From assembly GCA_020724775.1 (NCBI GenBank), contig DYGG01000003.1, forward strand, positions 1-64,000: DNA of 64,000 nt, read 5' to 3'. The position numbers and the translations under genes were made by a program. Of this stretch, positions 46,803 to 49,628 are shown in pieces. Numbering within the stretch: the first letter of the stretch is position 1; the number at the start of each line of letters is the position of its first letter. The stretch is from Ignavibacterium sp. (GTDB lineage Bacteria > Zixibacteria > MSB-5A5 > GN15 > PGXB01). Below the pieces are notes generated by a model. The model saw only the letters and a list, made by a program, of their open reading frames with translations, did not search any database and was not told the origin of the DNA.

Positions 46803-48224
46803 ATGAAAAAGACCGTCTATCTGACACTTCTTATTGCGGTGCTTGGACTTGCCATAATGGGCTGTCAGAACGAACCAAACCCGGTTGTTTCTCGTCATAT
46901 AACCGGCTCGATGCCGACTAATCTGCTATCGAAAGTTAGCATCCCGGAAAATGCCGTGCTGGATTCCGCCATCTTATATCTCTATGTAACGCAAGCCAAT
47001 AATCAGACCATCAGGATTCACCGTGTGACCTCCGATTGGGATGAATATACCGTTACCTGGAGCAATTTCGGAACCTATGACCCGACCGAGGTCTCTAATT
47101 TTGTGGCTGATGGTTTAGGGTGGCGTTTTGCCAACATTACCGCTCTGGTCGCCGGTTGGCTTGATGGTGATTACAGCAATTTTGGACTTTTGATCCGGCA
47201 GGATGAACTAACCTATCCCCGCGCCCGTTTTAACAGCCGTGAAGCGGCATCCAATCATCCTTATATCAAGGTCTGCTACACCGTCGACGACACTCCGACC
47301 TGCGTGACAGATGAGACTATTGCCGATGTTTATATTTCCGAGTTGAGTCCTAATTACAATTTCGGAGATTGGGATATTCTGCACACCGGCTGGGCTAATC
47401 CGACCGCTCTGGAGAAGCAGAGCCTTCTTCGCTTTGACTTTGAAGAGACTCCCTGCCTGAACTGCATTGGCAACTTTGTCTGGCATGATATCAACCGCAA
47501 CGGTATCCAGGATGAGGGTGAACTCGGTATCGGCGGCGTGGCTGTCCATCTGTTTGACTGCACCGGCGCCCCGATTGCTTCGACCGTCACCAATGCTGAA
47601 GGTTACTATCAGTTCTGCGAACTTCCTTCGGGCGATTATTATCTGCAGTTTGTTGCCCCGATGGGATATGTTTTCACCATGCAGGACCAGGGGATGAATG
47701 ACGCCCTTGATAGCGATGCCAACCCCACGACCGGCATGACCGCCTGCACCAATCTCAGTTGCGAAGATGATATGACCTGGGATGCCGGGCTGTACATTCC
47801 GGAGGAACTGGGCTGCTCCTTTACCATTGGATACTGGAAGACCCATGCCGGTCTAAAGAGACAGCCGGATATGGTAACGGCGCTTCTTCCTCTCTGGCTT
47901 GGCAATGCCGGCGGGGCTAAGAGTTACCAGGTTACGACGGCTCTGATGGCGGTTAATTTCCTGAGCCAGAATGTTTACGGAACCGCGGATAACGGCATTA
48001 CCAAACTGTACGCTCAACTTCTGGGCGCGAAATTGAATATTGAAAACGGCGCTTCGGATATGACCATCAGCGCTGTAATCACTGCCGCTGACAACTTCCT
48101 TGCTACGCACAACTATCTGGATTGGAGCGGTCTGAGCGAATCTGACCGTCAGATGGTTCTCGGCTGGCATGCTATGCTCGATGATTACAACAACGGACTT
48201 CTCGGTCCGATGCACTGCGAATAA
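46803..48224 (+). CDS. Lipoprotein with DNRLRE-like, SdrD B-like and novel C-terminal domains
   Basis: 473 aa. The signal sequence ends in a lipobox-like AIMGC (Cys about 21). Residues about 45-225 look like a DNRLRE-type beta domain (AILYLYVTQANNQTIRIHRV, then SDWDEYTVTWSNF). Residues about 220-330 are an SdrD B-like repeat (IGNFVWHDINRNGIQDEGE, with GIGGVAVHLFD and NAEGYYQFCELPSGDYYLQF in part). The last 140 residues begin with CSFTIGYWKTHAGL and are alpha-helical and unlike the rest. GYWK(N/T)H segments occur at this place in other secreted proteins, but I know no function. GGAGG lies 8 bases before the ATG. It is probably a surface lipoprotein, transcribed alone. Confidence 0.78.
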   Translation: MKKTVYLTLLIAVLGLAIMGCQNEPNPVVSRHITGSMPTNLLSKVSIPENAVLDSAILYLYVTQANNQTIRIHRVTSDWDEYTVTWSNFGTYDPTEVSNFVADGLGWRFANITALVAGWLDGDYSNFGLLIRQDELTYPRARFNSREAASNHPYIKVCYTVDDTPTCVTDETIADVYISELSPNYNFGDWDILHTGWANPTALEKQSLLRFDFEETPCLNCIGNFVWHDINRNGIQDEGELGIGGVAVHLFDCTGAPIASTVTNAEGYYQFCELPSGDYYLQFVAPMGYVFTMQDQGMNDALDSDANPTTGMTACTNLSCEDDMTWDAGLYIPEELGCSFTIGYWKTHAGLKRQPDMVTALLPLWLGNAGGAKSYQVTTALMAVNFLSQNVYGTADNGITKLYAQLLGAKLNIENGASDMTISAVITAADNFLATHNYLDWSGLSESDRQMVLGWHAMLDDYNNGLLGPMHCE

Positions 48225-48249
48225 GCAGATATTTCTCGATTGATTAAAG

Positions 48250-48285
48250 CCCGTGGGCGCCGGCATGGCGCCTGCGGGTTTTTTT
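48250..48285 (+). terminator. Terminator of the SdrD B-like lipoprotein gene
   Basis: A 12-bp stem with two G-T pairs (48250-48261 with 48267-48278), 5-base loop and T7 right behind it (48279-48285). It is 25 bases after the stop codon. Confidence 0.85.
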
Positions 48286-48297
48286 GGCATTAAAAAA

Positions 48298-48390
48298 CGG
48301 AAGGGGTAGGAATCGAACCTACCAGAGGCGGCGTAACCGCCTCCCCACGGTTTTGAAGACCGCAAGGGCCACCAGACCCTATCCGCTTCC
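48298..48390 (-). tRNA. selC: tRNA-Sec (anticodon TCA)
   Basis: 93 nt. The anticodon arm is GCGGT-CTTCAAA-ACCGT with anticodon TCA. The D arm is the long selenocysteine type (AGGGTC-TGGT-GGCCCT, six pairs and a four-base loop). The variable arm is long (GAGGCGG/CCGCCTC), and the T arm is GTAGG-TTCGATT-CCTAC. The acceptor starts GGAAG as in most selC genes and the discriminator is G. One oddity: the 3' side reads CCCTTCC, leaving a C-C mismatch at position 6 and only seven bases instead of the usual eight. A consensus-like promoter directly precedes it. Confidence 0.9.
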
Positions 48391-48397
48391 GGTCGAA

Positions 48398-48426
48398 ATT
48401 ATAGCGAATAGGCTTAGTTCTGGCAA
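48398..48426 (-). promoter_or_regulatory. Promoter of tRNA-Sec
   Basis: TTGCCA (48421-48426) and perfect TATAAT (48398-48403) with 17 bases between on the minus strand. The -10 ends seven bases before the tRNA 5' end. Confidence 0.75.
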
Positions 48427-48476
48427 GAGTTGTTCTCTAACATTTAACTACACAATTGAAATCTAGCGGCATCAAT

Positions 48477-49628
48477 TCAATGCGGTGGAGCCCAAAAGAC
48501 TCTATTGTCATTGGTGTAATAATCAATGAATTTCACCGTTTCCTTATGCTCAGTCCAGGTTGTATCAGCCGTACCGGCCATATCATCTGCGTATCCAATT
48601 GGATTCAAATACACCCATTCTCGCAGCCCCAATTTAGATTCATAATTGAATTCGCTGCTTACCGGGCAAGAGAACCGAAACAAGTTCTTAGACATATATC
48701 TATAATATATCTGCTTATCGTGGGGCTGGCCATTATAGTCTATATCATCATTTACAAATAACTGATGTCCAGACGCCATTAATTGTCGGACGTCTTCAAT
48801 GCTCAGCAATTGACCGACAGAATCCATAAAGTACGCCTGAAAAGTGGGATCCATATAGAGCCATTTTTTCAGAGAATCGGAATAGACAATATTTATCACG
48901 TGGCAATCAGGGTCTTTTGGGTCTTTTGGCAGGCAGGTGATATGGCGTGAGCCAAAACCCATTGCAAGATAAACTTCATTCAAAAGTGTCGCAATCATAC
49001 GACAGTTTACGCCTCGGTTTGTAGCACGGCAGGAATCAAGTATGGTCAAAGCGTTTCTGTCTTTCAGATTCAGAGGATTGACCGACCCATCGTGTTTGAC
49101 TGAGCGATGAGCCCATTTCATAAGGCTAACGATTCTATCGACTTCACCCTTTTCTCTGCATACACTATCAAGCGCGTACAAGCTTCTTAATTTCATCAAA
49201 CCGGAATCGGTTGTGGGAGAATAAATGAAAGGTGGCATATTGGTCGGCACAGCATTGCCAAAAACCGAATACTCCCTCAGATTTCCCGTAATACTCAAAG
49301 GAAACTCAACATGCGCGATTCTATCATATTTTTCGTATTTCATTCTTACCACTGGGACAGCCAACTGCGGAATGATTATGAGAGTATCCTTTCCAGAGTA
49401 GAGCATTAAGGTATCGTTTTTGGGTAAGCGAAAGTGGCTGATGCTGTCGATCGCACTAAGAGTGAATGACCCGACTTCACCTTGAAAGTTGTACCAAACC
49501 GTATCATTCGATGATTCGAGAAGATATTTTGAATCCAACGCAGATGAATCATTGGCGTCGGTTATATGCTGAGCGGTCGCGCTCATACATAAGAAGGAGA
49601 AAGTGAGAGTATAGGTGAGCATTCTCAT
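48477..49628 (-). CDS. Secreted transglutaminase-like protein
   Basis: 383 aa. Signal peptide about 1-20 (ending in SATAQ), a beta-rich N-terminal half, and a transglutaminase-like core at about 185-290: RGVNCRMIATLLNEVYLAMG (Cys), DCHVINIVYSDSLKKWLYMDPT (His and Asp, in part). The Cys-His-Asp triad is complete, so a thiol peptidase, deamidase or cross-linking activity is possible; substrate unknown. GGAGGG lies 8 bases before the ATG at 49628; the longer frame has no such site. By eye the gene is more AT-rich than its neighbours and stands alone, which could mean recent acquisition. Confidence 0.72.
   Translation of the reverse strand: MRMLTYTLTFSFLCMSATAQHITDANDSSALDSKYLLESSNDTVWYNFQGEVGSFTLSAIDSISHFRLPKNDTLMLYSGKDTLIIIPQLAVPVVRMKYEKYDRIAHVEFPLSITGNLREYSVFGNAVPTNMPPFIYSPTTDSGLMKLRSLYALDSVCREKGEVDRIVSLMKWAHRSVKHDGSVNPLNLKDRNALTILDSCRATNRGVNCRMIATLLNEVYLAMGFGSRHITCLPKDPKDPDCHVINIVYSDSLKKWLYMDPTFQAYFMDSVGQLLSIEDVRQLMASGHQLFVNDDIDYNGQPHDKQIYYRYMSKNLFRFSCPVSSEFNYESKLGLREWVYLNPIGYADDMAGTADTTWTEHKETVKFIDYYTNDNRVFWAPPH

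Follow-up and report, generated by a model that had tools for sequence, protein, structure and literature searches.

The selenocysteine tRNA gene in the window

The window, the whole stretch of 64,000 nucleotides of contig DYGG01000003.1 that was analysed, holds a selenocysteine tRNA gene (selC) with a shortened acceptor 3' strand, and this raises the question of whether the gene is functional and, if so, how its acceptor stem folds and how it is expressed. The analysis makes it very probable that it encodes a functional selenocysteine tRNA of the 7/5 class with bulge 5a and a 12-bp acceptor plus T domain, expressed from its own sigma-70 promoter with the transcript starting within one base of G1. 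ARAGORN called tRNA-SeC(tca) at 48297-48391 (-), and Infernal matched the Rfam tRNA-Sec family RF01852 at 48299-48390 (-) with 73.2 bits (E 7.5e-15; gathering score 47). Both programs and direct reading agree with the earlier note, made from the letters alone, on the UCA anticodon, the six-pair D stem with its four-base loop and the long variable arm. The 5' strand GGAAGCGG is followed by an AU linker and by the D stem AGGGUC/GGCCCU (6 bp, loop UGGU), CCA is not encoded and the discriminator is G73 (Table 1). From the T loop to G73 there are 12 nt, one fewer than the canonical 13, so the 3' strand is indeed one base short, as had been claimed. The minimum-energy fold of the sequence is a 7/5 cloverleaf with C6 bulged.

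Table 1. Coordinates of selC and its parts in the window, and of associated genes elsewhere in the host genome
Feature	Position	Strand	Remarks
selC, tRNA-Sec(UCA)	48298..48390	-	G1 = 48390, G73 = 48298; RF01852 covers 92 nt, plus G73
5' acceptor strand GGAAGCGG	48383..48390	-	C6 = 48385, partnerless
3' acceptor strand CCCUUCC	48299..48305	-	7 nt, canonical = 8
T arm GUAGG-UUCGAUU-CCUAC	48306..48322	-	5 bp, all standard pairs in all rows
UCA anticodon	48354..48356	-	loop CUUCAAA 48352-48358
sigma-70-type promoter TTGCCA-17-TATAAT	48398..48426	-	-10 box at -13 to -8 in tRNA numbering; predicted start C-1 or G1
selA	C75:15873-17207		484.9 bits
selB	C75:13992-15842		324.6 bits; adjoins selA
selD	C25:8996-9916		393.3 bits
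selD in-frame TGA	C25:9026		single one in the matched region
rnpB (RNase P RNA)	C28:65065-65446		

The gene thus has the features of a bacterial tRNASec, namely UCA in a CUUCAAA loop, a 6-bp D stem, a long variable arm and G73, together with selA, selB and selD in the genome. It lacks those of the canonical 8/5 form (a 13-bp acceptor plus T domain with an 8-bp acceptor) and is not classed there because its 3' strand, like those of all 103 parsed homologues, is 12 nt long. The traits given for the bulged 7/5 form in the available text of PMC5330540, seven residues from the T stem to G73 and one bulge in the 5' strand, are both present. Escherichia coli selC (NC_000913.3) shares the UCA anticodon, the 6-bp D stem, G73 and the SelA/SelB pathway, and differs in its 8-bp acceptor and encoded CCA. 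Next to selC, and convergent with it, lies a large, secreted-looking protein (46803-48224, +); by eye, the spacer between the two genes (48225-48297) contains a GC-rich hairpin that could terminate both.

Selenocysteine machinery in the genome and the phylum

The host genome (G000; 3.07 Mb in 87 contigs, 95.66% complete) groups with Candidatus Zixiibacteriota genomes in the scan of the collection. It carries selA, selB and selD, all with matches above the curated NCBI cut-offs, and the in-frame TGA of selD aligns with the catalytic Cys17 of E. coli SelD (3u0o_A; residue number counted from the alignment). Absence of the selenocysteine machinery, which the earlier note had named as the finding that would overturn its claim of UGA decoding, is thereby ruled out. 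Because the three genes are present and selD carries TGA in frame where E. coli SelD has its catalytic cysteine, the sequences support this claim, that the Zixiibacteriota lineage of G000 decodes UGA as selenocysteine. The window itself holds no selA, selB or selD, again as previously reported, the sole matches over cut-off in the genome lying on C75 and C25 and not on C81; apart from selC, no other component of the selenocysteine pathway was found within the window. Among 132 genomes of the phylum, SelB exceeds its cut-off in 113 and SelD with an in-frame TGA occurs in 109.

In about 20 genomes of the phylum there is a second, TGA-free SelD frame, mostly of about 735-900 aa (for example, G064:C30:4222-5142 and G005:C1:2006013-2006936), often alongside a TGA-containing SelD and probably representing a fusion. 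Formate dehydrogenase alpha was considered as a second selenoprotein and rejected: the TIGR01591 matches in four genomes were all below cut-off (0/4 above) and had no internal stop.

With this machinery in place, the tRNA would be expected to follow the bacterial route, in which the transcript from its sigma-70 promoter would begin at G1 or one base off, its 3' end would be trimmed and CCA added, SerRS would charge it with serine, SelA would convert the product to Sec-tRNA with selenophosphate from SelD, and SelB would bring it to UGA codons, that of selD among them. It could instead be a UGA suppressor or a tRNA of the selC* type, carrying cysteine or serine, and a relative (G084) does possess a selC*-like tRNA with a GCA anticodon and a T discriminator. 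The U73 and Cys identity elements that mark selC* tRNACys or suppressor genes are lacking in the window gene, which has UCA and G73, the latter in all 103 parsed genes of the phylum; together with selA, selB, selD and the in-frame TGA aligned with the catalytic cysteine, this leaves such a role most improbable. The tRNA of G084 (L089/L304; G084:C141:3355-3446, -) is a second tRNASec-like tRNA with a long D stem, GCA (Cys) and, by eye, an 8-bp stem AAGGCTGG/CCGGCCTT, and resembles selC*-type tRNACys; on inspection by eye, neither SelB nor CysRS was seen among the ORFs of the 4.5-kb contig that carries it.

The acceptor stem: an unpaired base 6 fixed across the phylum

The comparison of selC with relatives that had been proposed was made with 106 loci of the phylum, of which 103 could be parsed. 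Outside these stand G099, whose anticodon loop ends in C and whose stem is the same by eye, G112 with a degenerate 5' acceptor, and G116 with a degenerate D stem and a UUA anticodon. In all 103 genes the 3' strand has 12 nt and base 73 is G. The 5' strand reads GGAAGNGG in every one, with N (base 6) being C in 50, A in 43, U in 10 and G in none; the lack of G at the bulge would fit selection against pairing in a shifted register.

A missing 3' nucleotide could be due to a base error or to decay of the gene, and there are reasons to consider this: the window gene does not follow the 8/5 consensus, the assembly consists of 87 contigs, and two relatives (G112 and G116) have degenerate copies. The same strand length in 103/103 parsed genes from separate genomes nevertheless refutes both a base error and a pseudogene, pairing elsewhere is perfect, and selA, selB and the TGA-containing selD are intact, so we attach almost no weight to this explanation; the suggested error at 48300-48308 is accordingly dropped. 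As judged from the phylum alignment, the bulge is a phylum-wide feature of an already described type and no sequencing error.

The strand length by itself cannot exclude an 8/4 fold, in which C6 faces C in a mismatch and the T stem has four pairs, and variants with a bulged base have been published according to the available text of PMC7609411. Drawn in this way, position 6 forms a standard pair in 0/103 genes, facing C throughout. With 7/5 pairing and base 6 bulged, every one of the 103 genes forms standard pairs throughout, seven in the acceptor and five in the T stem. The fifth T-stem pair, which the 8/4 fold would leave free, is standard in all of them (G-C in 64 and G-U in 3 of 67 alignment rows). 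An 8/4 stem is therefore improbable, and the comparison favours C6 as an unpaired bulge over a C-C mismatch, even if the two drawings differ little physically. Of the mismatch claimed at position 6, the unpaired C6 stands and the mismatch drawing does not, since a bulge without a partner fits all 103 genes.

Pairing partners in other phyla point the same way. A cross-phylum pattern scan, which detects only genes starting GGAAGNGG, returned at least 118 stretches. Among the matches listed, 18 selC genes of other phyla with this start have a 13-nt 3' strand, and in 18/18 base 6 faces its complement (C-G 12, U-A 3, A-U 2, G-C 1); therefore, the 12-nt form corresponds to the canonical one without this complement. 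Base 6 would have become a bulge when its partner on the 3' strand of the 8-bp stem was lost. The 12-nt form was also seen, among the matches listed for genes with this start, in 25/25 Spirochaetota and in 10 of 13 Pseudomonadota rows, these ten being Photobacterium and Aliivibrio. A G-G opposition at position 8, which leaves the canonical 8-bp stem unpaired at its end, occurs in 11/18 of the 13-nt genes among the matches listed (L141, L164, L174, L193 and others), which come mostly from Myxococcota and Thermodesulfobacteriota.

Over the whole selC structure, the covariation score exceeded those of all 500 shuffles. Two-sided changes occur in the D, variable and T stems and in one anticodon-stem pair; the acceptor stem is nearly constant, with six of its seven pairs invariant, and so contributes no covariation signal. 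In columns 27-28 and 44-46 of alignment A1, the foot of the anticodon stem is unpaired as aligned in 30-31 of 67 Zixiibacteriota rows, which a bulged U at 43a would fit.

Relation to described 12-bp selenocysteine tRNAs

Bulged 7/5 tRNASec is known in other phyla, and the Zixiibacteriota are a phylum-wide addition to this described class. The available text of PMC5330540 (Santesmasses et al. 2017) reports 47 top-scoring tRNASec whose acceptor and T stems add up to 12 bp and in most of which an acceptor base is bulged; they come from Gammaproteobacteria, Clostridiales, Spirochaetes, two Alphaproteobacteria, Rubrobacter and Dehalogenimonas, and the legend of the paper's S2 figure distinguishes bulge types 3a, 4a and 5a. 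The window selC shares with these a 7-bp acceptor, a 5-bp T stem, one 5'-strand bulge (of type 5a) and G73; the 43a anticodon-stem bulge, common in that set, would suit many Zixiibacteriota rows. In contrast to that set, as far as the same text describes it, where most genes lie in selABC operons, the selC of G000 stands alone on another contig than selAB, and the bulged form is fixed in 103/103 parsed genes of another phylum. By description only, a 12-bp acceptor plus T domain is also shared with the 7/5 tRNASec proposed for Epsilonproteobacteria (PMC4607533, in the text available) and with the Cloacimonetes type (as summarised in the available text of PMC5330540), the latter having 7 + 5 bp and lacking a linker base. 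Zixiibacteriota were not found in the available parts of PMC5330540 and PMC4607533 on 12-bp tRNASec, and among the literature matches listed for Zixibacteria with selenocysteine or selenoprotein, the group appears only as a reconstructed genome.

Besides the lack of covariation in the acceptor stem, two observations count against a functional 7/5 bulged tRNASec. First, according to the available text of PMC7609411 and PMC4607533, work on E. coli showed that tRNASec is directed to SelB rather than EF-Tu mainly by its 8-bp stem, a rule that a predicted 7-bp stem would fail; the bulge probably replaces the eighth pair, keeping the tRNA off EF-Tu and being fitted to SelA and SelB. Secondly, in 17 of the 132 genomes SelB exceeds its cut-off but selC was found neither by RF01852 nor by the phylum covariance model R1 (G008, G009, G025, G029, G031, G047, G051, G052, G056, G061, G066, G067, G070, G072, G074, G118 and G131), where misses are possible, the first round of the R1 search having covered, in each genome, 150 candidates out of a pool of up to about 2,200; one of these, G051, is a single contig. 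A functional tRNASec of this class extends the bulged 7/5 form from scattered species to a fixed phylum-wide state, accompanied by SelB and TGA-containing SelD, and offers, in the Zixiibacteriota, a natural setting for testing how a tRNASec without an eighth acceptor pair is discriminated by SelB and EF-Tu.

Both degenerate copies belong to family f17. That of G112 (L303; G112:C8:27559-27650) is a selC whose 5' acceptor half, preceded by an A-rich flank, is degenerate. L343 (G116:C55:4452-4545), the sole match of G116 to the phylum model (57.7 bits), has a CUUUAAA loop and a broken D stem, and its contig also carries a TGA-containing selD close by; it could represent decay, contamination or recoding.

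Promoter placement and a possible leaderless transcript

The good promoter that had been attributed to selC was recovered: TTGCCA-17-TATAAT has 11 of 12 consensus bases and is the sole promoter-like site in 48200-48520, shuffled versions of which gave a mean of 0.3 such sites. When 74 distinct upstream sequences of Zixiibacteriota selC genes were aligned on G1, a TATATT-like -10 hexamer stood at -12 to -7, and TT at -35/-34 within a -35 box at -35 to -30, a 17-nt spacer separating the two. No fixed promoter column was seen in the controls, 63 first-of-cluster tRNA genes of nine Zixiibacteriota genomes around 60 loci (the best 30 of 39 matches in G000 and 30 loci of 356 matches in eight genomes). 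TANNNT at exactly -12 to -7 was present in 74/103 selC genes vs 0/63 controls, and TANNNT ending at -8 to -6 in 82/103 vs 5/63, where ARAGORN starts of the controls may be one base off. Shuffling of the upstream sequences predicted the -10 box in 8.1 of 74, whereas 54 of 74 had it. The Fisher p of the placement (7e-21) is too small, the Zixiibacteriota rows being related; counted by taxon, the placement prevails in 54 of 69 genera and is seen in 13 of 19 families. In families f16 and f14 the box lies farther upstream, and family f2 has TATNAA at the same place and hence scored 0/4.

Counted from the transcription start, a -10 hexamer usually spans -12 to -7, so that with the box at these positions of the tRNA the start is expected on or beside G1. 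A pyrimidine at -1 with G at +1 is the usual initiator pair, and 99 of the 103 parsed selC genes carry C or U at -1. On this basis, we consider it somewhat more probable than its negation that the tRNASec of Zixiibacteriota would be made without a 5' leader, starting on G1 with a 5'-triphosphate and bypassing RNase P, most other tRNAs having leaders. A general loss of RNase P as the cause of leaderless tRNAs was rejected: rnpB was found in 113/132 genomes, including G000. Leaderlessness would then be specific to selC rather than due to a lack of RNase P, because the RNase P RNA is present here and in those 113 genomes.

The same RNA also allows for the promoter boxes being real and the start lying elsewhere, or for a short leader that RNase P cuts, so that the tRNA would not be leaderless. 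Start sites scatter by 1-2 bases around the usual distance from the -10 box, and in the window this box (-13 to -8) lies one base farther upstream than the phylum column, making C-1 as good a geometric start as G1; the upstream boxes of f16 and f14 agree with such a reading. Against it stand the -35 and -10 columns of the phylum, absent from the 63 controls, and the initiator pair at -1 and +1, and we hold a start elsewhere or a removed leader to be a real possibility but a less than even one.

If true, a leaderless start would avoid a -1 base able to pair with G73. It would also provide a bacterial counterpart, via another polymerase, of the vertebrate tRNASec gene (Trsp), which is transcribed from the first tRNA nucleotide while other tRNAs have leaders, according to the available text of PMC8744743. 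The Zixiibacteriota promoter is placed like the Trsp start described there, the bacterial start being predicted only. Trsp differs in its use of RNA polymerase III, its 9/4 fold and its PSTK/SepSecS route (see also PMC7609411, in the text available). In E. coli selC, 31 nt lie between TATAAT and G1, so that a leader is expected there, unlike the placement in Zixiibacteriota. Among the matches listed for leaderless tRNA, no literature was found on bacterial tRNASec. Should the placement be confirmed, leaderless tRNASec would have arisen separately in bacteria and animals, which raises the question of why tRNASec in particular avoids RNase P.

A linkage of the bulge with leaderlessness as one trait was considered and is unsupported: among the matches listed, all 25 Spirochaetota genes have the 12-nt form and only 1/25 has TANNNT ending at -8 to -6, although this phylum is a weak control for the promoter, as many of its selC genes may lack one of their own. 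Finally, two tRNASer genes of Zixiibacteriota (L090, G083:C139; L093, G080:C8) have TATATT at -12 to -7 too, and a few other tRNAs such as these may also be leaderless.
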